Of a stretch of 64,000 nucleotides of DNA, positions 15,489 through 61,217 are shown piece after piece (position 1 is the stretch's first letter; each line of letters begins with the position of its first letter). This DNA comes from Streptomyces sp. CBMA29 (lineage in GTDB: Bacteria; Actinomycetota; Actinomycetes; Streptomycetales; Streptomycetaceae). A model generated the notes under the pieces. The model saw only the letters and a program-made list of their open reading frames with translations, was not told the origin of the DNA and searched no databases. Where the stretch lies: positions 1 through 64,000 of the forward strand of contig NZ_MECL01000126.1 in assembly GCF_014596445.1 (NCBI RefSeq), in the 5' to 3' direction. The position numbers and the translations under genes are program-made.

Positions 15489-15540
15489 GGATCATCCTTT
15501 CGTTGGCACTGGCTGACTTGCTGACCGTTGAACCGACCGG

Positions 15541-23304: not shown

Positions 23305-23313
23305 CGCATCAGG

Positions 23314-45415: not shown

Positions 45416-46567
45416 CTACGCGTCCACGCCGGTCCGACAGCTCTCGCGCGTCCAGGCGCGGGCCTGGTCGGTGAGGGTGAAGCCGAGGCCGGGGCGGTCG
45501 GACAGGTGCATACGGCCGTCCCGGATCTCCAGCCGCTCGTTGAACAGCGGTTCGAGCCACTCGAAGTGCTCGACCCACGGCTCGTGCGGGTAGGCGGCGG
45601 CCAGGTGGAGGTGGATCTCCATGGCGAAGTGCGGGGCGAGTTGCAGCCGGTGGTGGTCGGCCAGCGCGGCCAGCTTGAGGAACTGGGTGATCCCGCCGAC
45701 GCGCGGTGCGTCCGGCTGGATGATGTCGCAGGCCCGCGCGTCGATCAGCGCCACGTGCTCCGCGACGCTGGACAGCATCTCCCCGGTGGCGATCGGCGTG
45801 TCCAGCGCGGCGGCCAGCGCGGCGTGCCCCTCCGCGTCGTACGCGTCCAGCGGCTCCTCGATCCAGGTGAGCCCGAACGACTCCAGCGCCCGCCCCAGCC
45901 GCGCCGCAGTCGGCCGGTCCCACTGCTGGTTGGCGTCCACCATCAGCGGTACGCCGTCGCCGAGATGGGCCCGTACCGCTGCGAGCCGCTTGAGGTCCTC
46001 GGCGCTGTCCGGCTGACCCACCTTGATCTTGACGCCGCCGATGCCGCGCTCCAGCGAGGCCGTCGCGTTCTCCATCACCTGCTCGACGGGCGTGTGCAGA
46101 AAGCCGCCCGAGGTGTTGTAGCACCGCACCGAATCCCGGTGCGCGCCCAGCAATTTGGCCAGCGGAAGGCCCGCCCGCTTCGCTTTGAGATCCCACAGCG
46201 CGATGTCGAACGCGGCGATCGCCTGCGTGGCCAGGCCGCTTCGCCCCACCGAGGCGCCCGCCCACACCAGTTTCCCCCACAGCCGCCCGATGTCGTTGGG
46301 GTCCTCACCCACCAACTCCCCGGCCACTTCCCGCGCGTGCGCGAACTGGCCGGGCCCGCCGGCCCGCTTGGAGTAACTGAACCCGATCCCCTCGTGCCCC
46401 TCCTCCGTCCCGATCTCCGCGAAGAGCAGCGCGACCTCCGTCATCGCCTTCTGCACCCCCGTCAGCACCTTGGCGTCGCTCACCGGCACCGCCAACGGCA
46501 GATACACGGACGACAATCTGACCGACCGAATCCGGTCACCGGCGGACGGCATCGACACCACGGACAT
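45416..46567 (-). CDS. Enolase-superfamily sugar-acid dehydratase (talarate/galactarate-type)
   Basis: Mandelate racemase/muconate-lactonising enzyme group of the enolase superfamily, about 383 residues. The catalytic Lys pair is in GGVKIKVGQPDS (KxK). The metal ligands follow in PLMVDANQQWD, TWIEEPLDAYD and PIATGEM, and the His-Asp region in CDIIQPDAPRVGG and QLAPHFAMEIHLHL. The pattern and the GFSYSKRAGGPGQFAHA segment resemble L-talarate/galactarate dehydratases, which make a 2-keto-3-deoxy acid. The start is open: ATG 46567 abuts GGGGAG, GTG 46561 has that site six bases away, and ATG 46552 is also in frame. ATG 46600 would overlap an AT-rich likely promoter. It is convergent with the Rid gene. 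Confidence 0.88.
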   Translation of the reverse strand: MSVVSMPSAGDRIRSVRLSSVYLPLAVPVSDAKVLTGVQKAMTEVALLFAEIGTEEGHEGIGFSYSKRAGGPGQFAHAREVAGELVGEDPNDIGRLWGKLVWAGASVGRSGLATQAIAAFDIALWDLKAKRAGLPLAKLLGAHRDSVRCYNTSGGFLHTPVEQVMENATASLERGIGGVKIKVGQPDSAEDLKRLAAVRAHLGDGVPLMVDANQQWDRPTAARLGRALESFGLTWIEEPLDAYDAEGHAALAAALDTPIATGEMLSSVAEHVALIDARACDIIQPDAPRVGGITQFLKLAALADHHRLQLAPHFAMEIHLHLAAAYPHEPWVEHFEWLEPLFNERLEIRDGRMHLSDRPGLGFTLTDQARAWTRESCRTGVDA

Positions 46568-46744
46568 CTCCCCGATCACATATCTAAACGCCAAGCGCAT
46601 CCCTGAACGCGCCCAGCATACGACCGCCCCCCGCTCCCCGACAGTCCGTGCTCAAGGAGGACGAGATCCACCGGTCACCGATGAGTTCGACCGGCACGCC
46701 CAGTCGTACCCGGTACAGCGAACTCCTACGGAGAGACCGATCCC

Positions 46745-47388
46745 TTGACCGAGCTGAACGCGGACCGTGCCCGGCAAGCGATCGTCGGGCACACCCGACG
46801 TCTGGCGGAATCAGCCGCCGCGGCCGGGCCCGGGACCGCTGTCCCGACGGCTCCGAAGTGGACCGTCTCCGACCTGGTCACGCACGTGGGTCAGACGCAG
46901 CACTGGGTCGCGGAGATCATCGAGCGGCGCATCACCGACCCCGCGCACCTGCCCACGCAGATGGCCGTACCGCCCACCGACCCCCGCGAGTGGCCGGCGT
47001 GGCGGACCGGCCGTCCGAGATCGACGCCGGCATCGCTGCCGCGCTCATCAGCAACCACTTCGCGATGCTCACCTCTCCCACGTGGGAAACGCAGCGGCCC
47101 GACTCCGCGCACGCCATCCGCGGCACCGGGCAGACCTTGCAGTGGCTGGCCACCGACACGGGAGACAGCCCGGGTGCCTGGTCCGTCGAACGGCGGCCCG
47201 ACCGGGCGGCGTGGAAGCCGGAAGCCCGCCAGGCCGACGTCACGGTGACCGGTCCGGCCCGATCGCTGCTGCTGACCCTGACCCGACGCCTTCCCCTCAC
47301 CGACCGCGAAGCGACCGGCATCAGGATCGACGGCGAGACCGGCCTCGCCCAGCACTGGCTCGACAACACCGCCCACGTCAGCGGCTGA
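46745..47388 (+). pseudogene. Frameshifted mycothiol-dependent maleylpyruvate isomerase-like (TIGR03083) gene
   Basis: Two overlapping frames together make one DinB-like protein of the maleylpyruvate isomerase/TIGR03083 family. The first frame (TTG 46745) gives the N-terminal metal-binding helices (LVTHVGQTQHWVAEIIERRI). The second continues from about 47005 (EIDAGIAAALISNHFAML, TGQTLQWLATDTGDSPGAWS, HWLDNTAHVSG) to TGA 47388. The shift falls near 46990-47010 and corresponds to one lost base (or two gained). Length and order are otherwise normal, so the loss is recent, or the base is a sequencing error. Its stop lies 29 bases before attL, so before element insertion it would have been convergent with murA2. 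Confidence 0.8.
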
Positions 47389-47417
47389 CCGACCTCGCGG
47401 CCTGCGATATCCGCGGA

Positions 47418-47434
47418 TCAGATGTCGCGGAAGA
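47418..47434. repeat. attL: left 17-bp copy of the att core
   Basis: TCAGATGTCGCGGAAGA, identical to positions 59688-59704, where the same bases encode the last codons and stop of murA2 (minus strand). The bases on both outer sides differ, so the repeat is exactly 17 bp. Confidence 0.88.
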
Positions 47435-47537
47435 GACCAGCGGACACGGTGACCTGCGGGGTTTTACTGTCGGAGTCTTTTGACCTGCGTGAATGTTCTT
47501 TCGGCTGTTTCACGCTCGTACTGGCTGATGGGCCGGA

Positions 47538-47559
47538 AGTCTCAGGAAAGTCCCAGAGA
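47538..47559. repeat. Candidate integrase arm sites, left end
   Basis: AGTCCCAGAGA at 47549-47559 is preceded directly by a variant (AGTCTCAGGAA, 47538-47548; 8 of 11 bases). The same 11-mer is duplicated near attR (59601-59622) in the same orientation. Spaced direct repeats on both sides of an att core are typical arm-type sites of tyrosine integrases. Confidence 0.65.
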
Positions 47560-47627
47560 ACTCCCGTAGGCAGGAGCCACTCTTTCGGCTCGGTACAGGG
47601 CTCACGGGTGGGCTGTGGGCTGGTGCT

Positions 47628-47775
47628 CGTGTATCCACGTTCTGACCCGAATGAACGGCAACTCGCACTGCTCGAGCGGCTCGCGACCGGTGAGGAGCAT
47701 CCCGCAGCGTGGGCGCTTGGAGATTGGCGGTCTGCTCATGCCTTGCGCGATCGAGGTTTGCTGAGAATCAGCCGG
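47628..47775 (+). pseudogene. Gene fragment, unknown family
   Basis: A short coding-like run (YPRSDPNERQLALLERLATG then WRSAHALRDRGLLRI) resembles small winged-helix-like proteins often seen on actinobacterial mobile elements, of the form ERQLxVLxRIA...ARALRDRGL. No good start is present and the C-terminus is replaced by the IS701 remnant. I treat it as a truncated gene. Confidence 0.4.
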
Positions 47776-48285
47776 TGCGGCGGGGAAACGACCAGCGCTG
47801 GTGGGGCGGGGTTTATCTGCGGGGGCTGCTGACGGACGGGAAACGGAAGTCGGTGGAGCCGATGGCCGCCCGGCTCGGGGCGGACGGCAACCGGTAGGCG
47901 TTGGCCAACTTCATCACGAACAGTCCGTGGGATCGGCGCATATCCGGGCCCATCTGGCCTGGCGGACGGAAGCGGCGATCGGTCCGAAAGCACTGGTCTT
48001 CGACGATACCGGGTTCCCCAAGGACGGGACCGCGTCGGCGTGTGTGTCACGGCAGTACACCGGGACCGCGGGCAAGGTCACCAACTGCCAGGTCGGCGTC
48101 TCCCTGCACCTGGCCTCGGATCAGGCGTCGGCGGCGGTGGACTGGCGGCTGTTCCTGCCCCGGGCATGGGACCCCGCCTCGCCGGAGGCCGACCCGGACA
48201 GGACCGCCCGGCGCAAGCGCTGCGGCATCCCCGACGACGTCGGGCACGTGGAGAAGTGGCAGCTTGTGAGGACGGCCAGGAAGGC
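47770..48285 (+). pseudogene. IS701-family transposase remnant
   Basis: Fragments of an IS701 DDE transposase. The first part reads VYLRGLLTDGKRKSVEPMAA then RLGADGNR and hits an in-frame TAG at 47896 (where a Gln codon is usual) before ALANFITNSPWD. After a frameshift near 47935 it continues AHIRAHLAWR, LVFDDTGFPKDGTASACVSR (first catalytic Asp region), QYTGTAGKVTNCQVGVSLHL and VGHVEKWQL. The last two thirds, with the remaining catalytic residues, are gone. No terminal inverted repeats were found. It is clearly inactive. Confidence 0.85.
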
Positions 48286-48398
48286 TACCTCCCGCCCGGG
48301 ATCCGCGACGCCCTCGCCTGGGCCTGAACCCGCCCGCCCAACCCTCCAGGAGACACCTATCCCCACCCCATCTCCGGCCTCCCCCACGGACCCTCGAC

Positions 48399-48662
48399 GT
48401 GATCTGCCTCCCGACGCCCGCCACCACACTTCCCCTCGGCCGCATCCGCCCGCTCTGGGAACCCGCCACCCACGCAGGCTGGACCATCCACGCCCACCTC
48501 GGCCTGGCCACCACCGAGGTACTGCTCGCCCGCTGGCCCGCCGCCCCCGACCACTGGCCCGACCTGATCCGCCCCACCCTCTACGAGGTCACCGGCCTGT
48601 GCCACGCCCTCACCTACGCCACCGCCGCCCTCGATCTTTCCGACCGCCTCTCCCAGAATTGA
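48399..48662 (+). CDS. Small hypothetical protein in the element
   Basis: An 87-residue frame from GTG 48399 with good actinobacterial codon usage: LPTPATTLPLGRIRPLWEPA, WTIHAHLGLATTEVLLARWP and LIRPTLYEVTGLCHALTYAT. The amphipathic pattern and biased third positions argue that it is, or was, coding. I do not recognise the family. No ribosome-binding site is close; the nearest AGGAGA is 45 bases upstream, so the 5' part may have been lost when the IS701 copy decayed. Confidence 0.45.
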   Translation: MICLPTPATTLPLGRIRPLWEPATHAGWTIHAHLGLATTEVLLARWPAAPDHWPDLIRPTLYEVTGLCHALTYATAALDLSDRLSQN

Positions 48663-48937
48663 AAAGCTCGACTACAACAGCAGCGAGGAAGACCACAGAA
48701 GAATCAGCGCAGTCACCTCGCCTTGGCGTTTCCATTGGTCTACTCGACCGTTGCGGGCCAAGTAAACTCCAAGTAGGGTGCGCCCGACCGCCTGGGAGAC
48801 AGCCAGGTATAAGGTTCAGCTCGAGTGGTTGCGGACCGCCAACCCCACACCACATATGACAACATAACGATGGGGCGACGGCTGACGGAACGTCGTCCGT
48901 GAAACTGATTGCCGGACTACATCGAAAGGCCCCCACC

Positions 48938-49429
48938 ATGCATCTCGTAATATCCGAGCACGATGAGTTCGCTGCACTAGTCATCAGGACTGACTTCTCC
49001 AACGAGGGCGCCTGGCAGGCGATCGTCACGGCGCTGGCTCAGCCATGGGGCTACAACAGCGAACTGGAAAGCCGCACTCATATCATCGATGAGCCAGACT
49101 GGGCTGGGGCGGCCTCCGAGGCGGTAATAGACGCACTTGAAGGTGTCGACGAGGTACCAGTGATCTTCATCGCCGACGCCGTGACAATGACTTCGCCACA
49201 TCAGGCGCTGCTCGCTATCGACCGATCACCTGAGGAAGATTTCCTGGACCCGATTTATGATCGGGAAATTATCGACTCCCCCTCCCCGCGTGAACTGCGA
49301 TCCACTCCGGCGGGTGTCCACGCAATTCACGCCAACCTAACCCTTGCAAACATGGACTTTTCGGACTACGCCGAAGCGGCGGCAGAAGACCCCACGGGCG
49401 TGTTTCACGATTTTAAGGATGGCTCCTGA
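48938..49429 (+). CDS. DUF6924-like protein, possible immunity or orphan gene
   Basis: A 163-residue acidic soluble protein that resembles DUF6924 proteins: VISEHDEFAALVIRTDFSNE, GAWQAIVTALAQPWG, an EDFLDPIYDREIIDSPSP loop and a final VHAIHANLTLANMDFSDYAE. ATG 48938 has GAAAGG eight bases upstream. The gene is lower in GC than the flanks, like the RHS tip. It is convergent with the RHS toxin gene rather than directly downstream on the same strand, so an immunity role is only a possibility raised by proximity and similar composition. Function of the family is not known to me. Confidence 0.7.
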   Translation: MHLVISEHDEFAALVIRTDFSNEGAWQAIVTALAQPWGYNSELESRTHIIDEPDWAGAASEAVIDALEGVDEVPVIFIADAVTMTSPHQALLAIDRSPEEDFLDPIYDREIIDSPSPRELRSTPAGVHAIHANLTLANMDFSDYAEAAAEDPTGVFHDFKDGS

Positions 49430-49883
49430 AGGCAGTCCCCCCAAGGGTATCCGCGCGCCGGATTCGATGCTGGATCGAGCGATCCGGGGGCGAGTTTGCG
49501 GTCACGAGCCAGCCCTTGCGTTCGGCAGCGCAATACGCCGTCCGCACACACCTCCGCCGGCCGCTCCGGCGGGATCGACGCCAGGAGCGGACGACGGATA
49601 TCCCGCAGAACTTGAACGCCTGATTGTCGTTCAGGTCCACACCCGGCACCGCCACGGTGAGGAGCAGCCCTGGACCGAGCTCCCGAGCCGGCACCTCGGC
49701 TACATCGAATACGACTGACAGGTCCTCAGTATCCAGTGGCGGCGCGCGGGAGGGCCTCAATCCGGCACCCCACGCACGCTCGTCGACGACACCGAGAAAC
49801 AACAATCAGCTTTGGGAACGCCGACGGCACTTCGGTTCAACGTTGCATAATCAAACAGTCACGTGAGGTAACTCCCAAGTACG
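49430..49883. other. Gap between DUF6924-like gene and RHS 3' end
   Basis: No gene here is convincing. A minus-strand frame (TTG 49805 to 49413) includes LSVVFDVAEVPARELGPGLL, followed by LTVAVPGVDLNDNQAFKF, which looks coding for about 50 residues and then degenerates into Arg-rich sequence. It lies directly downstream of the toxin stop on the same strand, the place expected for an immunity gene, so it could be an immunity remnant. No ribosome-binding site was found. Confidence 0.4.
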
Positions 49884-52800
49884 TTACATCGGTGCGTATC
49901 TGTTCCCGTAAACACGACGCACGTTGATTACTGCAACCAAGAATTGGTCCCCACGGACCATTCTATTGGCCGACAGAAATCCGCTCATCAGACCCCCCTG
50001 GGTATTATTCTCCGCCCGCGGGACGTCTTTGATCTTTGCCCCTATACCACCCTCAAGAGTCGAGGCAAATGGGTACTCGTCACAACTTCGTACTCTGATT
50101 CCCGTACCTTTATGCTGCTCCTTCCACCGATCGCACCCAGAAAGGGTGCGATTAATATCCCGAACGACTGTACTCCTGCTTGCAGTGAGAAGAAAAGGAC
50201 TTCCGGAGTTAATCGACATCATGTCATGAACGGCGATTTCCGGTGTCACTTTTCCATCGACCACGAACACGGGAAGCTTTTTGCAGTCATATTGCGAGAG
50301 GCCGTAGGACCATTCGCAGTCGTCGGCAAGCTGATCCCACTGCGGCTTGGTAAGCTTCTCCGGCACCGGGAGCAAATCCAAGAATTTATCTACATAATTT
50401 GATGTCGTGCTCCCAAAAGGATCGAGGGCACACGACACCCCGCCCAGCACCCTAGCAACGGTCCCCCCGACACCGAGGCGCAGTGCCTCTCGTTCTGCCA
50501 GCTTTCCCACTATACGGCCGGGGCTTACGGCCCATTGGCCTGTCGGGTCAGTCTTGTGAGTGGGTGAGTTGTCGGCGTACGAGTAGGCGGAATTGTACGG
50601 CGCGTCTACGCGGAGTTGGATGGGGTCCGTAGTGGTGAAGCGGCCGAGGGTGGGGTCGTAGTTGCGGGCGCGGAGGTTGAGTCCGGCTGCGCTGGTGGTG
50701 CGTTCGCGGTATTGGCCGGTGTAGCCGAAGGGGTTGGCGGGTGGGCTGGTGGCGGTGTCGGTCTGGGTGTATTCGCCGTAGGCGGTGTATGCGTAGCTGG
50801 TTTGGAGGGCTCCGGCGCCGTTGGTGAGGTCGGTGACGGAGCCGAGCTGGTCGTGGTGGTAGTAGAACGCGGCGTCGTCGCTGTTGGTCTGGGCGTGGAT
50901 CTGTTCCAGCGGGCTGTACTGGTAGTACGCGATGAGGTAGCCGGTGGCGTTGTAGTCCGATGATGCCTGGGGCAGGGCGTAGTTGGTGTCCCAGACGGTG
51001 GTGCGGGCGGTGGCGCCGTTGGTCTTGGCGGTGGTGCGATTGCCGTCGGTGTCGTAGGTGTAGGCGTAGGTGGAGCCGCCGGTGGTCAGGCCGGTGAGGT
51101 GGTTGTTGGCGTCGTAGGTGTAGGTGTTGGCGCCTGCACCAGTCTGGTTGCCGTCGTTGTCGTAGGTGAAGGGACGGGTGGTGGTGCCGCTCAGGGTGCT
51201 GGTGAGCTGGTCGGCGTTGTTGTAGGTGTAGGTGGTGAGTGCGCCGTTGGCGGTGGCGGTGGTGCGGTTGCCGACGCCGTCGTAGGTGTAGGTGGTGCCC
51301 GCGGCGGTGTTGGGGCAGGTCGCGGCCTGGGTGGCGGAGGTGCAGTCGGTCAGGAGCCGTCCGGCCTGGTCGTAGGTGTAGTACTGGTGGCTGTCCGGTT
51401 TGCCGAGGCGGTTGACGTCCACGCGGGTGGGCTGTCCCGCGTCGTCGAGGGTGAGTTGCCAGTTGGCCAGGGTGGTGGTGCCCTTGGTCGAGCCGATGGC
51501 GGTCAGGCGGCCGTCACGGTCGTAACCGCGTTTCTCGGTGTAGCCGTTGGCGCCGGGCATGACGGTGGAGGTGAGGTTGTCCGACGGGTCGTAGCCGAAG
51601 GTCGTGGTGCCGCCGGTGGCCTTCTGGGAGTTCTGGCGGCCGTCGTCGTCGTAGGTGTACGTGATCTTGTTGCCGGTGGCGGGGGCGGTGACGATGGTGG
51701 CGCCGGTGAGGTGTCCGGCGTTGTCGCCGCTGAACAGCCGCAGGTGGTTGGTGGTGTCGGTGGCGACGATGTCCAGTGTGGTGCCGGCGTTGAACTGGCC
51801 GGTGGCCGGGAGGCCGAAGGTGGTCCAGTCGGCGGTCTGCAGGATGTAGGTGCCGAACCCGCCCGTGCCGTTGGCGGGGTAGAAGCGGAGTTTGTTGTTG
51901 GCAGTGTCGCGGGCGAGGAAGTCGGTCTTGCCGTCTGCGTTGAAGTCGCCCGGCACCAGGTACATCGCTCCCCAGCCGCCGCCGAGGTCGGTGCGGGGGT
52001 TCAGGGTGCCGTCGCCCTTGCCCGAGTAGAAGTACAGGTGGCCGTCGGTGGAGTTGATGGCCAGGACGTCGAGTTTGCCGTCATTGTTGTAGTCCAGCGA
52101 GATCAGCCGGTACGTCGCCCAGCCGGTCCCGACCGTGGTACGGGTCCCGAACCCGCCGGTGCCGTTGCCGGGGTAGAAGTACATGGTGTTCGCCGACGAG
52201 CTGATCGCGAGGAAGTCCTGTTTGCCGTCGCCGTTGAAGTCCCCGGCGGTCAGCGCCATCACGCCCCAGCCCTGGCCGAGGTCGAACGCGGCGGCGAAGC
52301 CGCCCGCACCGTTGCCGTTGTAACGCAGCAGGTGGCCGGTGGACTTGTCGATCGCCAGTAGGTCGATCTTGCCGTCGCCGGTGTAGTCAATCGGCAGGAC
52401 CTGGTTGAACCCGGTACCCGAACCGGTCAGGGTCGAGCCGACGGTGAAGGTGCCGTCGGGGCGGCCGAGGTAGGTACGGATCGTGTTGGTGGCATCGGTC
52501 CGGATCACATCGGTAATGCCGTCACCGTTCAAGTCCGCGGACACGGTCTGGGTAGTGCCGGTCCAGTCCAGCGCCGCTCCGGCCGCGTAGTCCTGCGAAC
52601 GGGACGACAGGTGGCCCGCGTCGTCGTAGGTGTAGGCGAACGCGCCCTTGCCCGCCGAGGGCGTCACTGCGGTCAACTGCCCGTTGTCGTCGTATCCGTA
52701 GGTCCGGGTGCCGGTCCCGTCGGTGACGGTCTTTCGCTGGCCCGTCGCGTCGTAGGTGAAGCCCACCGCCGGAGTGCTGTCGCTGAACGTCGTCCCGCTC

Positions 52801-55800
52801 GGCAGCCCGCGGCCGTCGAAGACCGTCGTGGACACGGTTCCGCGCCCGTTGGTGACCTTGGCCGGGTTGCCGTCCGGGTCGAACTCGACCGATTGGGTGT
52901 TGCCCAGCGGGTCGGTCACATCGGTCTGCCGATCGGCGTTGTCGTAGCCGTAGGTCGTCGTGTGGCCGTTGTCGTCGGTGCGGGTCGCCAGAGTGCTGCT
53001 GAGGTTGTAGGTGTAGCTGGTGACCGCGTTGTCGGGGCCGGTGACCTTCTTGATCCGGCCCAGCTCGTCGTAGTCGGTCTTGGCGACCTGGTTCAACGGG
53101 TCGGTGACCTGCGTGACCTTGTTCATCGCGTCGTATTCGGTACGGGTGGCCTTGCCCAGGGCGTCGGTGACCTTCGTCTGGTTCCCCGCCGGGTCGTAGT
53201 CGTACGCCGTGGTGAACTGCGTCTTGTCCGCACCCGTCGCATTCCCCCGCGGGTCGACCTGGGTCCGCATCCGTCCGTCGAGGTCATATGTCCAGGAGGT
53301 GACGAAGCCCAGAGGTGACGTCTGGCTGACATGGTTGCCTGCCGCGTCGTATCCGTCTCTGGTCACCTTGAGCAGCGGATCGGTGCTCGTGAGCTGCCGG
53401 TCCGCGTCGTCATACGTGAACTTCGTGACCTTGTTGCGGGCGTCCGTCGTGGTAGCGATGTTGCCGTTGCCGTCGTAACTGGTCTTCGTGGTGTGATCCA
53501 GACCGTCGGTGACCGAGATGACACGGTTCAGAGCGTCGTACGCCGTCACGGTTTCCGCCCCAGACGGGTCGACAGTCCGGGTGCGGTTGCCGCTGCCGTC
53601 ATAACCAAAGGTGGTGGTGAACTTAGCCTTGTCCGCCCCCGCGACATTCCCCCGCGGCGACGTCATCGACGCCAGCCGATTCGCCCCGTCGTAGGTGTAA
53701 CTGGTCTTGTTCTGCGCCGGGTCAATCGTGGCGGACACGTTCCCCGCCTTGTCGTACTCGGTCCTGGTCACCTTGTTGTCCGGACCCGTCACCGAGACCT
53801 GGCGGTTGAACTTGTCGTATCCGTACGTGGTCACGTGGTTCAGGGCGTCCGTCACCGTGAGGACGTTCCCGTTGTCGTCATAGGTGTACGACGTCGCGTG
53901 CCCCAGCGGATCCGTCTGTTTCTTGAGCCGGCCCGCTGTGTCGTACTCGGACGTCGTACTGAACTTCGCCTTGTCCGCTCCCGTGACATTGCCCCGCGGA
54001 TCCGTCTGCGACGTCACCCGACCGGCATTGTCATACGTCGCAGAGGCGATGTTCCCCTCCGGATCAGTCGTCGACGTCAGATTACCGACGCTGTCGTACC
54101 CATAGTGGGTTACCCGGTTACCCGGCTCCGTCATCGTCTCGACCAGGCCACTGGCCGTGTAGGCGTACGACGTCACCCCGGCCGGTCCCGATTCCGACAG
54201 CATCCGCGCACTGGACCCGTCATAGGTGTATGTCGTCTTATGGCCACGCCCGTCAGTGTGCGCCTTCAACCGGTCCGACGCGTCGTACTCCCACGCCTCG
54301 GACGTGGTGTCGACCTGTGCCGATATGACGTTGCCATGGCTGTCGTACGTCATGTCGGTCGCCGCGTATTTACCGTCGGTGCTCCTGGTGACATTGAGCT
54401 GCGGGTCGTACGTACGGCGGGGGCCATTGCCGATCGGGTCGTAGCTGTTGAGCAGCACACCGGCCTGATAGACGTCTGTCCAGATGCCCCCGTTGGGGTC
54501 CGTCATATCGGATTCACCAGAACCGACAGGCGCACCAGAGGTCGGAACCCAGGCGAAAGTGGTGGTCTTGTTGTCGGCGTCGATCTGCTGAGTGATCCGC
54601 CCGGTCGACGGATCGTAGGTGTTCTGCGTGACAGTATTCCCCGCGGGATCCACAATCGTCGCCAGCCGCCCAGCGGCGTCGTACGTGTAGTGCGTGACAC
54701 CGGTGTCCGTGCCGGTGACGCTGGTCAACTGACCACCGGTGTAGGCGTAGTGCACCGACCGGCCGTCCGCGAGCGTCACCGCGGTCAAACGGCCGCTGCC
54801 GGTGTCAACGTCGAGGGAGGCCGTCCGCCCAGCAGCATCAGTTACCGAGCTGAGCACGCCTGAGGTGTACGTGAGAGTCAGACCGCGGCCGTCACTGTCC
54901 TTCATCGCGGTCAGCTGGCCTGTCTGGTCGAACGTGCGCGTGCTGTGGTCCAACGCGGTAACGGTGAACCCCCCGGCTACCGCCACTAGCGTGTAGCGAA
55001 CCGGCTTCGGTGTCGCGTACGACCCGTCACCGTTTTTCGTGAACACCACACGCGCACCATCGGCATCAACCAGAGTCGCCTTATCGCTGGCAGGGATCAG
55101 CGATGACTCGAAAGCAAGAGACCAGCCCTTCCCGACCAGACCCGTCGTCGAAGTCGCATCCGAACGATACGAACGCGCCAGCGCAAAAGGCACCCCCGCC
55201 CCAGGAACAACCGCATCCGTCACCGTCTCAGATACCGTTCCCGTAGCGGTGTTGACCGGATCGGCACGATTGGTCTGATGCGAACACGAGCACTGACCAT
55301 CCATCCCGCCGGGGATACCCGGAGTGAAGACAGCAGGCGCGGTGGGTGACGTCACGGGAGCACCCCAGGCATAGGGAACATAGAATGTTCCTGAAGAATC
55401 GCGGTGCTCCTGAAGCTGGGTCGGAAAATAAATCTTCGCGTAGTAATTCGTCCCCGCCTTGCCCTGCAACACTCCGTCTCCGATGTCGAAGCCGCACAGG
55501 TTTTCAGGAAACGTCGGTACGATCCACCTGATGCAACTGCCGCTGGTGTCACCGTCCACCGGACTATCAAGGTCGACATATCGGTCCGCGACCAATGAGT
55601 TATTCGAAGCCTGGTAAAGCTGCAGATGCATGAATAGTGGAAACCCCGGCGGAGTAGCATCCACCACTACTTCCCACGTCGTTCTCCCCGGGGAAACCCA
55701 AGTAGTCGCTCGCGGATTAACCGGCGGGTTCCCCAGTGCCGCCGTGACATCGCCATCGGCGTACGGCTCAACAATCCCTTCACGATTCTTTCCCCGGGCT

Positions 55801-56198
55801 ATGGCATGAGCGACAACGGAATCAACGGCGGAAGCACCGACAGTGCGATTCGGATCGATTCCATCGGCTTCCAGTGCTTTCTCATCACCTTCTGTCATTG
55901 GCTGCGGCAGAGACCCTTCGGTTACCTCCTTTCCGAACCGACGCTGGGGAGCAATATCCCAAAAGGGTGACCTACGACTTTCGGTGACTTGCGTACGCCG
56001 TTCAGTGAGTGTCATTGCGCGCTCGGGCTTCACCGGACGTACCGTCGCAGCCGAGGACGCAGACGCCGATGCCGGTGAAAACCCATGATCATCATCGCTA
56101 CCGTGGGCGCCAGCTGCGGCCGGAAGGCCAACCGCGACAGCACTAACCACCGCCAAGACCCCAATGCCGCAGCGCACGCGACGCCATGAATTATCCAT
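49884..56198 (-). CDS. Secreted RHS-repeat polymorphic toxin with NucA/NucB-like C-terminus
   Basis: A 2104-residue exported RHS protein. ATG 56198 (G-run upstream) gives a signal peptide ending VGLPAAAGAHG. A unique region follows to about residue 300, then DUF6531-like sequence (DPVNTATGTVSETVTDAVVP), many YD repeats (YDAAGRL-type), an FG-GAP/VCBS insert (about 1225-1505; DLNGDGITDVIRTD, YTGDGKIDLLAI), more YD repeats and the RHS core end (LNLRARNYDPTLGRFTTTDP, about residue 1850). The last 215 residues after DPTGQW are the variable tip. They contain SCDEYPFASTLEGG and VPRAENNTQGG, matching the NucA/NucB DNase pattern. The tip is AT-richer than the shell, a sign of exchange. It likely delivers a DNase into neighbours. 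Confidence 0.92.
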   Translation of the reverse strand: MDNSWRRVRCGIGVLAVVSAVAVGLPAAAGAHGSDDDHGFSPASASASSAATVRPVKPERAMTLTERRTQVTESRRSPFWDIAPQRRFGKEVTEGSLPQPMTEGDEKALEADGIDPNRTVGASAVDSVVAHAIARGKNREGIVEPYADGDVTAALGNPPVNPRATTWVSPGRTTWEVVVDATPPGFPLFMHLQLYQASNNSLVADRYVDLDSPVDGDTSGSCIRWIVPTFPENLCGFDIGDGVLQGKAGTNYYAKIYFPTQLQEHRDSSGTFYVPYAWGAPVTSPTAPAVFTPGIPGGMDGQCSCSHQTNRADPVNTATGTVSETVTDAVVPGAGVPFALARSYRSDATSTTGLVGKGWSLAFESSLIPASDKATLVDADGARVVFTKNGDGSYATPKPVRYTLVAVAGGFTVTALDHSTRTFDQTGQLTAMKDSDGRGLTLTYTSGVLSSVTDAAGRTASLDVDTGSGRLTAVTLADGRSVHYAYTGGQLTSVTGTDTGVTHYTYDAAGRLATIVDPAGNTVTQNTYDPSTGRITQQIDADNKTTTFAWVPTSGAPVGSGESDMTDPNGGIWTDVYQAGVLLNSYDPIGNGPRRTYDPQLNVTRSTDGKYAATDMTYDSHGNVISAQVDTTSEAWEYDASDRLKAHTDGRGHKTTYTYDGSSARMLSESGPAGVTSYAYTASGLVETMTEPGNRVTHYGYDSVGNLTSTTDPEGNIASATYDNAGRVTSQTDPRGNVTGADKAKFSTTSEYDTAGRLKKQTDPLGHATSYTYDDNGNVLTVTDALNHVTTYGYDKFNRQVSVTGPDNKVTRTEYDKAGNVSATIDPAQNKTSYTYDGANRLASMTSPRGNVAGADKAKFTTTFGYDGSGNRTRTVDPSGAETVTAYDALNRVISVTDGLDHTTKTSYDGNGNIATTTDARNKVTKFTYDDADRQLTSTDPLLKVTRDGYDAAGNHVSQTSPLGFVTSWTYDLDGRMRTQVDPRGNATGADKTQFTTAYDYDPAGNQTKVTDALGKATRTEYDAMNKVTQVTDPLNQVAKTDYDELGRIKKVTGPDNAVTSYTYNLSSTLATRTDDNGHTTTYGYDNADRQTDVTDPLGNTQSVEFDPDGNPAKVTNGRGTVSTTVFDGRGLPSGTTFSDSTPAVGFTYDATGQRKTVTDGTGTRTYGYDDNGQLTAVTPSAGKGAFAYTYDDAGHLSSRSQDYAAGAALDWTGTTQTVSADLNGDGITDVIRTDATNTIRTYLGRPDGTFTVGSTLTGSGTGFNQVLPIDYTGDGKIDLLAIDKSTGHLLRYNGNGAGGFAAAFDLGQGWGVMALTAGDFNGDGKQDFLAISSSANTMYFYPGNGTGGFGTRTTVGTGWATYRLISLDYNNDGKLDVLAINSTDGHLYFYSGKGDGTLNPRTDLGGGWGAMYLVPGDFNADGKTDFLARDTANNKLRFYPANGTGGFGTYILQTADWTTFGLPATGQFNAGTTLDIVATDTTNHLRLFSGDNAGHLTGATIVTAPATGNKITYTYDDDGRQNSQKATGGTTTFGYDPSDNLTSTVMPGANGYTEKRGYDRDGRLTAIGSTKGTTTLANWQLTLDDAGQPTRVDVNRLGKPDSHQYYTYDQAGRLLTDCTSATQAATCPNTAAGTTYTYDGVGNRTTATANGALTTYTYNNADQLTSTLSGTTTRPFTYDNDGNQTGAGANTYTYDANNHLTGLTTGGSTYAYTYDTDGNRTTAKTNGATARTTVWDTNYALPQASSDYNATGYLIAYYQYSPLEQIHAQTNSDDAAFYYHHDQLGSVTDLTNGAGALQTSYAYTAYGEYTQTDTATSPPANPFGYTGQYRERTTSAAGLNLRARNYDPTLGRFTTTDPIQLRVDAPYNSAYSYADNSPTHKTDPTGQWAVSPGRIVGKLAEREALRLGVGGTVARVLGGVSCALDPFGSTTSNYVDKFLDLLPVPEKLTKPQWDQLADDCEWSYGLSQYDCKKLPVFVVDGKVTPEIAVHDMMSINSGSPFLLTASRSTVVRDINRTLSGCDRWKEQHKGTGIRVRSCDEYPFASTLEGGIGAKIKDVPRAENNTQGGLMSGFLSANRMVRGDQFLVAVINVRRVYGNRYAPM

Positions 56199-56504
56199 CA
56201 ATCCCCCCACGGAATCTTCACACGACATGCAGAAGGTTCGATTCTTGAGCGCGCTCGTCCTCACGTCAAGACCCCGCAAAGCGGAGGAATGAATTCCCCC
56301 AATTCCCATTCATGGAATATTCCTACCAAAAGCCGCATCGTTAGCCCGATCTTTCGTGACGGTTCGTCGGTTCTTTCGGTGGGCCGTTTCGGCTTGTCTC
56401 GCGGATTGTGGGCAGGTGGCGGCCCGGCTGTTGTGCCGGGTGAACGCCGGTTTCCACGGTTCCGGTGGGAGTGCTGCTGGTGCAGGGAGGGCTGTTGTGG
56501 CTGA
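56199..56504. other. RHS upstream region with two GGAAT/ATTCC dyads
   Basis: No gene seen. GGAATGAATTCC (56286-56297) and GGAATATTCC (56314-56323) are perfect dyads of the same half-site, 16 bases apart, at 88-125 bp upstream of the RHS start. They may be an operator for the toxin gene. The rest is the 3' flank of the IS1380 remnant. Confidence 0.5.
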
Positions 56505-57120
56505 TCAGCCGGGTTTTGGAAGGGCGTCGAGTCTCCGGATGGCGTCGGTGATGACGTCGGTCCAGGGCCAGAGGCGGGCGCAGTGGAGGTGCCGCCGACG
56601 GGCGGTGCTGACCAGTTGAGCGGCGGCGGAGAAGAGCCGCAGCCGTAGGCGTCGAGGTTCCCAGAGCCGGGGCTTGCCGGCCAGGGCAAGTATCGGCAGC
56701 CAGGCCAGTAGGTCGAGTGCGGCGATCGGGATGTCGGTGGTGTTTGTGGCGAAGCAGGTCAGCCGCAGTCCGTCGGTGTCGGTGAAGCGCGACTGTGCCT
56801 GGGTGGGGTCGTTCCTTGCGGATGATCAGCCGCATCCCGGTTGGCCAGCCTTTCAGGACATCGCGGTCGAGGATCTCGCCTCCCGGTTCGATGGCGGGTG
56901 TCCAGGCAGAGGCGGGGACTTTGAGGACGGCCTGGTGGGTGGCGTCGGTGATGGTCATCCCGACCGAGTACGACAGCCACCTCCCGCGTCTTGCGAGCCA
57001 CGCAACGAACTGGTTGGTGTCGGTGCGGATCAAGGTGGAGCGGTCTCGTCGATATCGCTGGGGAAGCTGGACCAGGGACTGCTGGGCGTTTCCTTCCTGC
57101 GAGACCGGTCCGCGCTCGCT
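56505..57120 (-). pseudogene. IS1380-family transposase remnant
   Basis: C-terminal part of an IS1380-type transposase, broken by a frameshift and an internal deletion. One frame reads STLIRTDTNQFVAWLARRGR, LSYSVGMTITDATHQAVLKV and GMRLIIRKERPHPG. After a shift near 56800 it continues with RFTDTDGLRLTCFATNTTDI and then jumps to LDLLAWLPILALAGKPRLWE and LRLRLFSAAAQL, so the conserved QLADLELRHRRRARCEDRIR block is missing. The stop is at 56505. The N-terminal half and both ends are not seen. Confidence 0.82.
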
Positions 57121-57299
57121 GCGTTGGAGTGACTGCCCCGGGTGCTGAAGGCTGGTAATGATAAGAACCCGGATGTGATTTCTGAGAATAGTCAATAATT
57201 CTGAAGCCGTCATTGATCCGAAATGTATGTTGCTGTACCCCCCGACTCAAAGGAGTTCGCCTCTGTCCACCCGTGTCGATGAAAAGACGTGCCCATAGG

Positions 57300-57962
57300 C
57301 AAACGAGTCTCACCCGTGCTGGACTGGTTGGCTCATTGGCCAAAGGACGGGCTCGCGCTGCGAGGATTCGTGGCTTCCATCGATTTCGCGGCGTTGAGGC
57401 CGGGAGCGGCGCGTGCACTGCGGGTGGGAGACATCGAGAGCTACTGGAAGCCGGTGCCGGCTTCCTTCTGATTCCTTCCCGGATCGGCGAAGGCGCGGAG
57501 CGGAGTGCGGATGGAGCCTGCGGTGTTCGGCGAGTTCCTGCTTCGCCGGCGCTGACTGCAGTCTTGAGGTCGGAGATCGCTCGTTGTGAACTCCGTTCCG
57601 ACGATGCCGTGTTCGCGGGTGACGATGGGCAGGAGCTGTCAGGCGTTGCCTGTCGACGGTCCTGGCGGCAGGCGAGGTATGCAGTCGTCGGTGCGCAAGC
57701 GATGTCCTCTCCCTCGGGAGGGCGACTGTTTGACCTGCGCGACGCGTGTATTGAGGAATGGCTGCGGAGCGGCGACCAGAGCGCAGCACATATCGTCACC
57801 GTCGCCGAATGGGCGGGAGTTCGCGCCCCGTGGCTCGCTCAGCGCTTCGCGCACTGTATCGAGGGGCCGGAGCAATCTGGGATCCCCTGGGGCCGTCTCG
57901 AATCCGCATTTTGTGCTCCTGGCATGCCCGACGAGCCGATCGCAGCGGCACCTGTGCTTTAG
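57300..57962 (+). pseudogene. Tyrosine integrase remnant (first copy)
   Basis: Two frames recall an actinobacterial phage-type integrase. The first (from about 57325) has GFVASIDFAALRPGAARALR then VGDIES, the catalytic Arg box (usually LRPGEARxLR). The second, to TAG 57962, has GGRLFDLRDACIEEWLRSGD, VTVAEWAGVRAPWLAQRF and HCIEGPEQSG, matching the DLRHA...VAEWAGHS region, but with Asp in place of the catalytic His. It is a separate family from the integrase at 58.4 kb, so it marks an older insertion or tandem element. Confidence 0.7.
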
Positions 57963-58084
57963 TTCAGCGCCTCCACGGCCAGGCCGAGAAGTACTTCGTG
58001 CTCGCCCTCCGCTGACCACCACCGCCCGCACCGTTCCCACATCCCACAGGAGTTCCTCACGCCTCCGCGTCTCCTCACTCGGAT

Positions 58085-58369
58085 TCTCCCGCTACGACGT
58101 CGAAGAACGCATCCCGCCAGGCGTTCCTAACCGTCAATGAAGCCGCCGACTACCTTGGCCTGTCCCCTCATACCCTCTATGTCTGGCGCCACCGGCGTCA
58201 GGGACCGCCGAGCTTCCGTATGGGAAGCCGTGGCCGAGTGATGTACCGGATAGTGGCCCTGTACACCTGGGTTCGTGAACAAGAGCAGGCCGACTCGCGG
58301 TCCAACACTTCCATCAGCCCACTTCACACTCCCGTCCGGGAGCGCACCACTCGCTTCGCTAGCGACTGA
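58085..58369 (+). pseudogene. Excisionase-like helix-turn-helix frame without clear start
   Basis: The frame ending at TGA 58367-58369 encodes FLTVNEAADYLGLSPHTLYV, then WRHRRQGPPSFRMGSRGRVM and YRIVALYTWVREQEQ, a standard HTH_17/MerR-type excisionase domain. The frame is open from 58016 but has no ATG, GTG or TTG ahead of the domain, so the start is lost or non-standard. It lies 50 bases upstream of the integrase, the usual xis-int order. Confidence 0.72.
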
Positions 58370-58421
58370 CGCCCCCAGGCAGGCAGTACCGTCCTTATCT
58401 ATCGTTGTGGAGGAGTAAGAC

Positions 58422-59655
58422 CTGCCTGGCTACATAGAAGACCGATGGCTGAAGAAGCGCCCGAACCCGAAAGCACGCAAACGCGACCGCACCGCCATGT
58501 ACGGCAAGTGCACCCGATACCGCGCCAAGGGCATCCCCGGTGTCAAGGACCGCTCCTTCGACGCCCTCCAGGACGCCACGACCTGGCTCGCCCAGGCCCA
58601 GACCGACGCGCGCCGAGGCGAGTTCGTAGACCCCCGCGATGGTGCCATCTCCCTCAAGGACTATGTCGCAACGCACTGGTGGCCCAGCCAGAGCGGTGAC
58701 CCGTCCACGGTCGAGCGGATCGAGCAGAGGGTGCGGAGGCACATCGTTCCCCACCTGGGTGCTCAACCGCTGAACGCGACGGGCACGGAAGTCCTGCGTC
58801 ACTGGAAGAAGCGGCTGGAGAAGGACCTCGGTCCGACCTCCATCCATCTGGTTTGGGCGACGCTCTCCAGCGTCCTCCAGGCTGCGTCGAGGACCGTCGC
58901 CTCGGACGCAACCCGTGCCGATCCAGCACGGTCGGCCCGCCGGCCGCGGCACTCGGCAGGGTCGAAGCGTGGCCGCCCGACCGGGTGTTGGCGGTACGGA
59001 CGGCCCTGCCGGAGCGCTACCAGCTTCTCCTCGTGATCGGTGCGGACCTTGGGCTCCGGCAAGGGGAGGCGCTCGGACTCGCCTTGGAGGACATCGACTT
59101 CGCCAAGGAATTCGTACACGTCCGGCGGCAGGTCAAGATGGTGCGGGCGAAGTCCTGTTTCGCGCTCCTCAAGGGACGCGAGGTCCGGGACGTGCCGCTT
59201 CCGACCAGCGTGGCCCAGGCTATCCGACAGCACATGGAGCAGTTCGCGCCGGTTCCGTTCACACTGCCCTGGGACGACCCGCCTCCGGCTAAGACGCCCG
59301 TGGAAGCCAAACACCGGCGGCCGAGGACCTACAGCCTCCTGGTGACGGGACGCGAGCGGACGGCCATCAACCGGAACTACTTCAACTCCTACGTGTGGAT
59401 GCCGGCTCTGGCCACGACGGGCGTGATCGCCCCGCTAGGGGACGGCGGCGCCGACGGTGCTCGCGTGTGGGAGCCGTCCCGGGAACACGGCTTCCGTGCC
59501 CTGCCCTGCGACACTTCTACGCCTCCGAGGAGTTGGAGGCTGGCGAGTCAAATCGTCTCCCTGGCCCGCTGGCTCGGGCATTAGCCCGCCTCAAGCCCAA
59601 AGTCCCAGAGAAGTCCCAGAGATACGGCCGCACCGCGTCCCGACCTGCTGAATAG
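58422..59655 (+). pseudogene. Tyrosine-type site-specific integrase, frameshifted
   Basis: Integrase gene adjacent to attR, broken in at least two places. It starts well: GGAGGAG at 58409-58415 and then CTG 58422 giving LPGYIEDRWLKKRPNPKARK, where relatives have Met. The SAM-like core-binding region follows (VERIEQRVRRHIVPHLGAQP). After a shift near 58890 a second frame holds LLLVIGADLGLRQGEALGLA (catalytic Arg box). A third shift near 59500 leads to PALRHFYASEELEAGES (HxxR box region) and the end at 59655. The final Tyr box (usually WLGHSSPxxTxxxYxH) is damaged. It is inactive as read, though single-base errors should be excluded. Confidence 0.88.
59601..59622. repeat. Candidate integrase arm sites, right end
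   Basis: AGTCCCAGAGA occurs twice in tandem (59601-59611 and 59612-59622), 66-87 bases inside attR, in the same orientation as the matching copy near attL. They overlap the 3' end of the integrase gene. Confidence 0.7.
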
Positions 59656-59675
59656 CAGGTCAGACGCGGTGCGGC
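59627..59675. terminator. Long two-part stem-loop between integrase and murA2 ends
   Basis: Outer arms of 13 bp (59627-59639 with 59663-59675) and inner arms of 8 bp (GACCTGCT, AGCAGGTC) form a nearly continuous 21-bp stem with loop GAAT. It sits between two convergent genes, 12 bases past the murA2 stop, and should terminate both. It lies on the element side of attR. Confidence 0.85.
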
Positions 59676-59687
59676 GGCACCCGGGCG

Positions 59688-59704
59688 TCAGATGTCGCGG
59701 AAGA
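59688..59704. repeat. attR: right 17-bp copy of the att core, inside murA2
   Basis: Same 17 bases as 47418-47434. On the minus strand they encode Ile-Phe-Arg-Asp-Ile and the TGA stop of murA2 (with the first Ile codon only partly inside). Integration therefore restores the complete gene. Confidence 0.88.
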
Positions 59705-61217
59705 TCTCGATCTGGGCGCCGATGGAGTTGAGGCGCTCGGCGAGGTCTTCGTAGCCGCGGTTGATGACGTAGACGTTGCGGAGGACGGAGGTGCCTTCGG
59801 CGGCCATCATGGCGAGCAGGACGACGACGGCGGGGCGCAGCGCCGGGGGGCACATCATCTCGGCGGCGCGCCAGCGGGTGGGGCCCTCGACCAGGACGCG
59901 GTGCGGGTCGAGGAGTTTGACGGCCGCGCCGAGACGGGTCAGCTCGGTGAGGTAGATGGCGCGGTTGTCGTAGACCCAGTCGTGGATGAGGGTCGAGCCC
60001 TGGGCGGTGGCGGCGATGGCCGCGAAGAAGGGGACGTTGTCGATGTTGAGCCCGGGGAACGGCATCGGGTGGATCTTGTCGATGGGGGAGCGCAGCTTGG
60101 ACGGGCGGACGGTGAGGTCCACCAGCCGGGTGCGGCCGTTGTCGGCGCGGTACTCGGGAGTCAGCTCGTGGTCGAGCCCCATCTCCTCCAGCACGGCCAG
60201 CTCGATCTCCATGAATTCGATCGGCACCCGCCGGATCGTCAGCTCCGACTCGGTGACGACGGCCGCGGCCAGCAGGCTCATCGCCTCGACCGGGTCCTCG
60301 GACGGCGCGTAGTCCACGTCGCGGTCGATCGCGGAGACGCCGTGCACGGTGAGCGTCGTCGTACCGATGCCGTCCACTCGGACGCCCAGCTCCTCCAGGA
60401 AGAAGCAGAGGTCCTGGACCATGTAATTGGAGCTGGCGTTGCGGATGACGGTGACGCCGTCGTGCCGGGCGGCGGCCAGCAGCGCGTTCTCGGTCACCGT
60501 GTCGCCGCGCTCGGTCAGCACGATCGGCCGGGTCGGGGTGACGCCCCGGTCGACCTCCGCGTGGTACGTGCCGTCCGTCGCGGTGATGTCCAGGCCGAAG
60601 TGGCGCAGCGCGTTCATGTGCGGCTGGACCGTACGGGTGCCGAGGTCGCAGCCGCCCGTGTACGGGATACGGAAGCGGTCGGTGCGGTGCAGCAGCGGCC
60701 CGAGGAACATGATCACACTGCGGGTGCGCCGCGCGGCCTCGGTGTCCATCGAGTCCAGGTCGAGGCTGGCGGGCGGCACGATCTCCAGGTCGTTGCCGTC
60801 GTTGATCCAGCGGGCGCGGACGCCGATGCTGCCCAGCACCTCCAGGATCCGGTAGACCTCCTCGATCCTGGCCACCCGGCGCAGCGTGGTGCGCCCGGCG
60901 TTCAGCAGGGTCGCGCACAGCAGGGCCACGCAGGCGTTCTTGCTCGTCTTGACGTCTATGGCGCCGGACAGGCGACGCCCGCCGACCACCCGCAGATGCA
61001 TGGGGCCCGCGTAGCCGAGGGAGACGATCTCGCTGTCCAGCGCCTCGCCGATGCGGGCGATCATCTCAAGACTGATGTTCTGGTTGCCGCGCTCGATACG
61101 GTTGACTGCGCTCTGGCTGGTCCCGAGAGCCTCGGCGAGCTGGGACTGTGTCCAGCCCCTGTGCTGCCTGGCGTCCCGGATGAGCCTGCCGATACGTACG
61201 AGGTAGTCGTCGGTCAT
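59688..61217 (-). CDS. murA2: UDP-N-acetylglucosamine 1-carboxyvinyltransferase with N-terminal HTH domain
   Basis: MurA-family enolpyruvyl transferase of 509 residues, the first committed step of peptidoglycan synthesis (PEP plus UDP-GlcNAc). Residues 1-66 are an XRE-type helix-turn-helix (HRGWTQSQLAEALGTSQSAV, NRIERGNQNISLEMI), then a complete EPT domain from about residue 72. The Lys-Asn pair is in SKNACVALLCATLL. The fosfomycin-target Cys is present in TGGCDLGTRTVQPHM at about residue 189. RRVPIEFMEIELAVLEEMG lies in the second half. This fusion is known in streptomycetes as a second MurA. The 3' end is the integration site of the neighbouring element and remains intact. A palindrome 12 bases upstream of the ATG suggests autoregulation by the HTH. 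Confidence 0.93.
   Translation of the reverse strand: MTDDYLVRIGRLIRDARQHRGWTQSQLAEALGTSQSAVNRIERGNQNISLEMIARIGEALDSEIVSLGYAGPMHLRVVGGRRLSGAIDVKTSKNACVALLCATLLNAGRTTLRRVARIEEVYRILEVLGSIGVRARWINDGNDLEIVPPASLDLDSMDTEAARRTRSVIMFLGPLLHRTDRFRIPYTGGCDLGTRTVQPHMNALRHFGLDITATDGTYHAEVDRGVTPTRPIVLTERGDTVTENALLAAARHDGVTVIRNASSNYMVQDLCFFLEELGVRVDGIGTTTLTVHGVSAIDRDVDYAPSEDPVEAMSLLAAAVVTESELTIRRVPIEFMEIELAVLEEMGLDHELTPEYRADNGRTRLVDLTVRPSKLRSPIDKIHPMPFPGLNIDNVPFFAAIAATAQGSTLIHDWVYDNRAIYLTELTRLGAAVKLLDPHRVLVEGPTRWRAAEMMCPPALRPAVVVLLAMMAAEGTSVLRNVYVINRGYEDLAERLNSIGAQIEIFRDI

Follow-up and report, generated by a model that had tools for sequence, protein, structure and literature searches.

The segment at positions 47418–59704 of the window analysed here (64,000 nucleotides, positions 1 to 64,000 of the forward strand of contig NZ_MECL01000126.1 from Streptomyces sp. 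CBMA29) is best explained as a decayed integrative element inserted at the 3′ end of a murA gene, murA2 (probability about 0.9). This had been proposed in the original prediction, from which the gene name is taken over, and it is supported by the linkage of related integrases to murA2, by same-strand pairs of the core repeat in other genomes, by a shared element-side motif at the left copies, and by an unoccupied murA2 site that matches the left junction of a related element. Exact copies of the 17-mer TCAGATGTCGCGGAAGA were found at 47418–47434 and 59688–59704, enclosing 12.3 kb, and these are the only exact copies in the 8.48-Mb assembly (93.9% complete). With up to three mismatches allowed, the window contained two matches where 0.17 would be expected. 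The right copy, attR, consists of the last codons and stop of murA2 (59688–61217, minus strand), so that one of the direct repeats lies inside the end of the target gene. The murA2 product, a helix-turn-helix (HTH)-fused UDP-GlcNAc 1-carboxyvinyltransferase of 509 aa ending in ..GAQIEIFRDI, has an N-terminal HTH_3 domain (PF01381) and an EPSP_synthase domain (PF00275), and matched the NCBIfam model NF006873 (UDP-GlcNAc 1-carboxyvinyltransferase) above its cut-off and the murA equivalog TIGR01072 below it. The GC content between the repeats was 0.57–0.69, compared with 0.71–0.77 in intervals from 40.0 to 46.5 kb, and no tRNA gene was found within the 64 kb. The exact repeat, the foreign appearance of the DNA that it bounds and the identity of the right copy as the end of an HTH-fused murA gene are therefore all as originally described.

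A tyrosine integrase gene adjoins the right copy in the window (58422–59655, plus strand) but is a pseudogene in three frames (58422–59036, 58853–59584 and 59395–59655) with CTG at the start position. Approximately 135 bp present in relatives, including the codon for the catalytic tyrosine, are absent between 59580 and 59582, and the match to PF00589 (25.8 bits) falls just below the cut-off. As the gene is frameshifted and lacks the tyrosine region, the window copy is a relic. The integrase had been described as ending about 33 bp from the repeat, and the open reading frame (ORF) at 59395–59655 does end there, but this is merely one of the three frames of the broken gene. To survey relatives, an integrase alignment (A1) was compared with the contigs of 84,980 species, each represented by a single genome, which identified 29 loci at 73–100% identity, 19 of them encoding a full-length integrase with R-H-R-H-Y. 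At 27 of the 29 loci, the murA2 stop codon (following ..FRDI) starts 127–186 bp past the integrase match. The two exceptions were L120, where 14 core bases are present and murA2 is not behind them, and L123 (73% identity), located at the 3′ end of a WhiB-like gene that was named by reading the sequence and not by a family search. In the genus of the window, nine genomes carry an integrase at least 75% identical to that of genome G006, and seven of the nine are at murA2. The integrase of G012 (89%) is located at the 3′ end of a glutamine-synthetase-like gene (glnA, product ending in ..FELYFDI), and that of G034 (75%, partial) at the end of another protein gene (..QVWNV).

Of 27 relatives' genomes searched (L098 was left out), 13 contain another copy of the core on the contig and strand of the first, at spacings of 2.95, 15.7, 16.8, 18.1, 21.6, 29.4, 34.2, 34.9, 36.8, 41.3, 56.7, 70.9 and 198 kb. 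In two of these pairs, which belong to G050 and G057 and comprise the spacings of 16.8 and 56.7 kb, the left copy has a single mismatch. The 198-kb pair may extend over two or more elements. No same-strand pair was seen in the other 14 genomes, many of which are assembled in small contigs. Further pairs in the genus of the window were found in G026 (2.6 kb), G029 (26.7 kb) and G033 (10.8 kb), beside that of 12.3 kb in the window itself. As no integrase match (E ≤ 1e-30) was found in the G026 and G033 genomes, the pairs in these two are possibly relics or mere repeats. Three cores in a row were found in S. noursei, 826 bp resembling the integrase-side end precede the left copy in S. natalensis, and an arm repeat and an element-type hairpin, both described below, precede the left copy in G050, suggesting tandem accretion at this site.

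The 20 left copies compared, including that of the window, are followed by GA[CT] in every case, by GACCA in 16, and soon after by GTGACCTGC (up to two mismatches) in 18, and GACCAG is also present at two additional left copies, in G050 and G164. The conserved element end of the family is GACCAG..GTGACCTGC, and it is carried by the left copy of the window (47418–47434, plus strand), which is followed by GACCAGCGGACACGGTGACCTGC. The left copy is therefore an attL and not a stray repeat. The adjoining left arm (47435–47594, plus strand), which includes a AAAGTCCCAGAGAA repeat at 47547–47560 and is read as a putative arm site for the integrase, shares 69–79% DNA identity with the left ends of the elements in G006, G026 and G029. 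Transposase genes within the segment could be taken to mean that it arrived by transposition or homologous exchange and that the left 17-mer arose by chance or through recombination. However, with so few matches to the 17-mer expected, and with a left copy that carries the motif and arm of other elements, this explanation is highly improbable.

The left junction of one element could be aligned with an unoccupied site. In G059, the 330 bp that precede the left copy are 82% identical to the murA2 flank of G141. The two sequences align across a native hairpin (GGTGTCGTGCC..GGCACGACACC) and the whole 17-bp core, beyond which they diverge. Left copies in S. scabiei (G046) and G164 are also preceded by a native hairpin of the G141 type, and when the S. 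scabiei left flank was compared with 200 genomes, the only matches were to this hairpin and the core, in G141 and G164. The G059 left junction is thus seen against the unoccupied murA2 site of G141, a comparison that covers the left junction and is not a full before-and-after pair.

At the right end, direct repeats AAGTCCCAGAGAAGTCCCAGAG (59600–59621, plus strand), which recur beside the right core in relatives and are putative arm-type sites, are followed on the element side by a terminator-like hairpin (59620–59682) between the integrase gene and murA2. The murA2 3′ end was located in 170 of 200 family genomes sampled, and the arm repeats were present in 33 of 70 distinct murA2 flanks, a set enriched by integrase searches. 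Of 394 family genomes, 24 contained a strict attR pattern, at 25 places in all, a low figure because matching was exact; at least one of the places, C33 in G001, is not the murA2 of its genome. Core position 4 is A (TCAAATG, changing the Ile codon from ATC to ATT, which is silent) in 12 of the 33 arm-positive flanks, in none of the 37 arm-negative flanks, and in none of the 20 left copies. On the simplest reading, a silent change confined to arm-positive flanks places strand exchange to the right of core position 4, and both the end of murA2 and the sequence after it would derive from the element. The stop codon of murA2 would then come from the element side, and the hairpin probably does as well. 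The original prediction that the insertion keeps murA2 intact is correct in that the gene is left whole, but murA2 would not merely have been spared, as part of its end appears to have been replaced.

In the window, the hairpin on the murA2 strand (minus) has a predicted energy of −53 kcal/mol (z −7.17), and none of 200 shuffled sequences was as stable, whereas the left junction gave a z of +0.63. An alignment (A2) of 27 sequences, 26 from beside murA2 and one from beside glnA, supported a consensus hairpin of 16 pairs, six of which are kept via double changes in some sequence. It drew on 24 of the 29 loci, with L107 (a near-duplicate of L106), L113, L117, L120 and L123 dropped. The hairpin may equally have a role on the other side, serving the integrase gene as its own terminator or as a shield against read-through between the two genes, with any benefit to murA2 accidental. 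The hairpin lies where the convergent integrase gene and murA2 meet, it folds both as the murA2-direction strand and as the integrase-direction consensus, and it accompanies the integrase to glnA; however, nothing was found that separates a role for the integrase gene from one for murA2, and the chance that the former is the true one is put at rather less than even.

Several observations weigh against insertion at murA2 by replacement of the gene end. In G059, murA2 does not adjoin the right end of the element but is found 5.5 Mb from it, at 883 kb, with another hairpin, a decayed one, next to it. This distance indicates that the G059 genome is rearranged. No exact empty site was found for the left flank of the window (46600–47434) among 297 family genomes, with murA2 flanks also compared, and an empty site joining 47389–47417 directly to the 17-mer and murA2, the original prediction's proposed proof of attB, was not found in them. 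In the nearest syntenic genome, G013, the left neighbours of the window (34.7–45.4 kb) lie 2.2 kb from murA2 with other DNA between. In addition, no transfer genes were recognised in the element.

Other evidence of this kind concerns the hairpin. The covariation term of its alignment is small (−0.08). Element-type hairpins are also found to the left of at least eight of the 20 left copies (G026, G033, L160, L161, L163, L164, L166 and L170) and of the G050 copy, and a similar hairpin was seen by eye at six arm-negative flanks (L006, L007, L011, L012, L020 and L029). An arm-negative flank does not equal an empty site, as L011 (G022) has an integrase. These hairpins are tentatively read as left behind by earlier elements, or by tandem ones, at this site, but part of them may be of host origin. 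They would fit an explanation in which the hairpin, which touches murA2, is host DNA and the native murA2 terminator, the element ends to its left, and the right 17-mer is not a junction. However, a native hairpin of another kind is common to the unoccupied G141 site and to the left junctions of G059, G046 and G164, and the G059/G141 alignment breaks after the 17-mer. Furthermore, among 37 glnA flanks found, of which 30 were read, the element-type hairpin and arm repeats were present in just one, that of G012 with the close integrase, and in none of the other 29. The silent core change at arm-positive sites also puts the junction inside the core, and a host origin of the hairpin at the right end is accordingly considered improbable.

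The rearrangement in G059 (L120, L167 and L256) split the target site, and the left copy of the element keeps the native murA2 flank. The left flank of the window is considered accessory because so few genomes match it: matches were found in 16 of the 297 besides its own, 13 of them by 43–84 bp only, and longer ones in G018, G116 and G177, those in G018 and G116 being far from murA2 or on another contig. The region immediately left of attL (45416–47388) contains an MR_MLE gene and an MDMPI-like gene, the latter rare in the family and shorter by about 150 bp relative to G116 and G177. This region may represent older accessory DNA in the hot spot. The G013 interval was considered as a clean empty site and rejected, as its 2.2 kb holds DNA similar to 22486–23307 of the window. 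In S. noursei, 112 bp separate the leftmost copy from DNA that matches the same G013 region, the one with the left neighbours of the window.

Under insertion at murA2, the tyrosine integrase would have joined the attP of a presumed circular form of the element to the final codons of murA2 (core TCAGATGTCSCGGAAGA), and recombination between the two would have left a direct repeat of the core at each end. On its integrase side, attP would carry the arm repeats, to which the integrase would bind, then the terminator-like hairpin and the core. After insertion, murA2 would end with a stop codon and hairpin supplied by the element, at which its transcription could terminate, and the native downstream hairpin would be left at the far (left) junction. 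The integrase gene would have been broken later, and because it is broken the window copy is presumably fixed, its mobility apparently lost.

The glnA site suggests that the target can change. In a FastTree tree of 46 sequences (L056 and L057, which are duplicates, and pieces of up to 150 aa were left out), the G012 integrase was nested in the murA2 clade (22-member node, support 0.985), suggesting a target switch between murA2 and glnA. The two targets have T[CT]AGATGTCG in common. The glnA 3′ end adjoins the close integrase (89%, L084/G012) and also a distant one (43–50%, L082/G010), and glnA may therefore be a second protein-gene hot spot. In G001, arm repeats, hairpin and core were found at C33:171225–171322, away from the murA2 of that genome, and represent either a relic that was displaced or a different target. 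An S. clavuligerus plasmid (NZ_CP086232.1; coordinates 264460–264963) also carries an integrase fragment, with 85% identity to the murA2-integrase clade.

From the left end, the element in the window carries an IS701-like transposase gene (47801–48859, plus strand), a partial match with 127.7 bits to PF13546 (DDE_5), above the cut-off, and 117 bits to NF033540 (IS701), below the 150-bit cut-off, followed by a gene for a DUF6924 protein (48899–49426, plus strand; PF21962, 4e-35). The next gene (49884–56309, minus strand) encodes an RHS/YD-repeat protein of 2141 aa with FG-GAP repeats and a C-terminal DNase NucA/NucB domain (PF05593, PF13517, PF14040; TIGR01643, TIGR03696), a predicted DNase with polymorphic-toxin architecture that, like the IS701-like gene, is counted as cargo. 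An ORF at 49413–49805 (minus strand) was considered as its immunity gene and rejected, as it appears non-coding on inspection, and the DUF6924 protein is named as a purely speculative candidate for that role. A transposase fragment (DDE_Tnp_1_4) lies at 56341–57213 (minus strand; PF13701, 23.6 bits, below the cut-off of 34.7), and the transposase genes may be later arrivals. Next is the relic of a second, recombinase-like ORF (57192–57962, plus strand), found upstream of the excisionase and integrase genes in relatives, with blastp matches at 14 of the 29 loci. The window copy has no Pfam match of its own, and its relatives at L216 and L096 match PF00589, that at L096 below the cut-off. The product of the L216 copy (15493–16293) is 267 aa long and by reading lacks R1 and the H of HxxR, so that part of the catalytic set is apparently missing. 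This ORF perhaps encodes an accessory DNA-binding factor. The excisionase-like HTH_17 protein is encoded at 58019–58369 (plus strand; PF12728, 1e-10), with matches upstream of the integrase gene at 22 of the 29 loci.

The content of the elements differs between relatives. Seven element stretches were compared using a crude gene caller, which gave 139 proteins, of which 30 were scanned against Pfam; the G042 stretch ends before the right end, and the S. noursei stretch is the left part of its array. Apart from the integrase and murA2, three protein groups were shared between stretches, each by two of the seven. The G042 element (L218, C7, 1993–11505) carries a pPIWI_RE defence set and then a Tox-REase-2 polymorphic-toxin-like gene, that of G061 an RHS protein, that of G049 metabolic genes, and that of G029 NADH-dehydrogenase-like and transport genes. 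In G058 (L219:11009–12898), one ORF combines a metallophosphatase domain with a match to the final 76 positions of EPSP_synthase, a murA-like 3′ fragment inside the element.

Tyrosine integrases with excisionase-like partners are also typical of prophages and of actinomycete integrative and conjugative elements (AICEs), and an FtsK-like transfer gene is a defining part of the latter. An FtsK/TraB-type Walker motif (G[ATS]TGSGKS) was absent from the 29 integrase loci, the seven element stretches and the window element in a crude search covering mostly about 10 kb upstream of the integrase gene. No phage structural family was found among the 30 of 139 element proteins scanned, and no RepSA/Prim-Pol replication protein among the proteins in general Pfam scans, with no dedicated search made. 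All 494 phage records matching the integrase were below 60% identity, and viral contigs gave two distant matches (34–41% identity). The prophage and AICE readings were rejected because the motif is missing from the stretches examined, structural families are missing from the 30 proteins scanned and the phage records are distant, and the family is described simply as integrative islands. AICEs decay readily (PMC9513070), but descent from a prophage or AICE that has lost its structural or transfer genes is still judged unlikely.

Islands at the 3′ ends of protein-coding genes are already known in Streptomyces. The original prediction considered such a site unusual, and tRNA sites were indeed the more numerous in a Streptomyces population (36 tRNA, 14 protein-coding and one intergenic; PMC9513070), but the count shows that protein-coding sites are less rare than had been claimed. 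The PAISt island of Streptomyces turgidiscabies, a modular tyrosine-recombinase island at the bacA 3′ end with eroded integrases in relatives (PMC4057263), resembles the murA2 elements in its location at a protein-coding gene end and its type of recombinase. It differs in having an 8-bp palindromic core TTCATGAA in bacA, compared with the 17-bp core in murA2. The TR1/TR2 islands of Streptomyces scabiei (PMC10711302) likewise lie at a protein-gene 3′ end, in tandem and with border repeats, but the border is TAGACGTTGAAGCGGAAC, the target is aviX1, and TR2 encodes its own transmission. The core here lies in murA2, and not in bacA or aviX1. AICEs such as pSAM2, SLP1 and their kin share a tyrosine integrase and insertion at a gene 3′ end, but those with tyrosine integrases are mostly found in tRNA genes (PMC3218068), and no FtsK-like gene was seen in the murA2 elements examined. 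No report of murA as an insertion site was recognised in a limited literature search, in which the murA2 family did not turn up, and murA is not named in the main text of PMC3218068, PMC9513070 or PMC10711302. A further parallel is provided by phage 21 and e14 at the icd 3′ end of E. coli, where insertion leaves a conserved protein gene with its 3′ codons restored by the element. The murA2 elements would share this restoration, although phage 21 and e14 are prophages in another host and gene.

The supply of a gene end and hairpin is the point of real interest. Tentatively, at a likelihood only slightly short of even, a dedicated Streptomycetaceae integrase clade may carry gene-end replacement cassettes, in which attP holds the last codons and stop of the target and a strong terminator hairpin, so that the element lands silently in a conserved cell-wall gene. 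The clade would have moved with its hairpin to other gene ends encoding D-I-stop (glnA), and murA2 would thus serve several kinds of cargo, defence (pPIWI_RE), polymorphic-toxin and metabolic, as a common landing site. The murA2 3′ end can now be named as such a site in Streptomyces-like bacteria, and it is worth mining because some of the islands carry defence and polymorphic-toxin genes. The integrase clade, with 19 full-length members, could serve as a source of site-specific integration tools. It also offers a testable idea about how islands live in protein-coding genes, seemingly by bringing along their own gene end and terminator-like hairpin.

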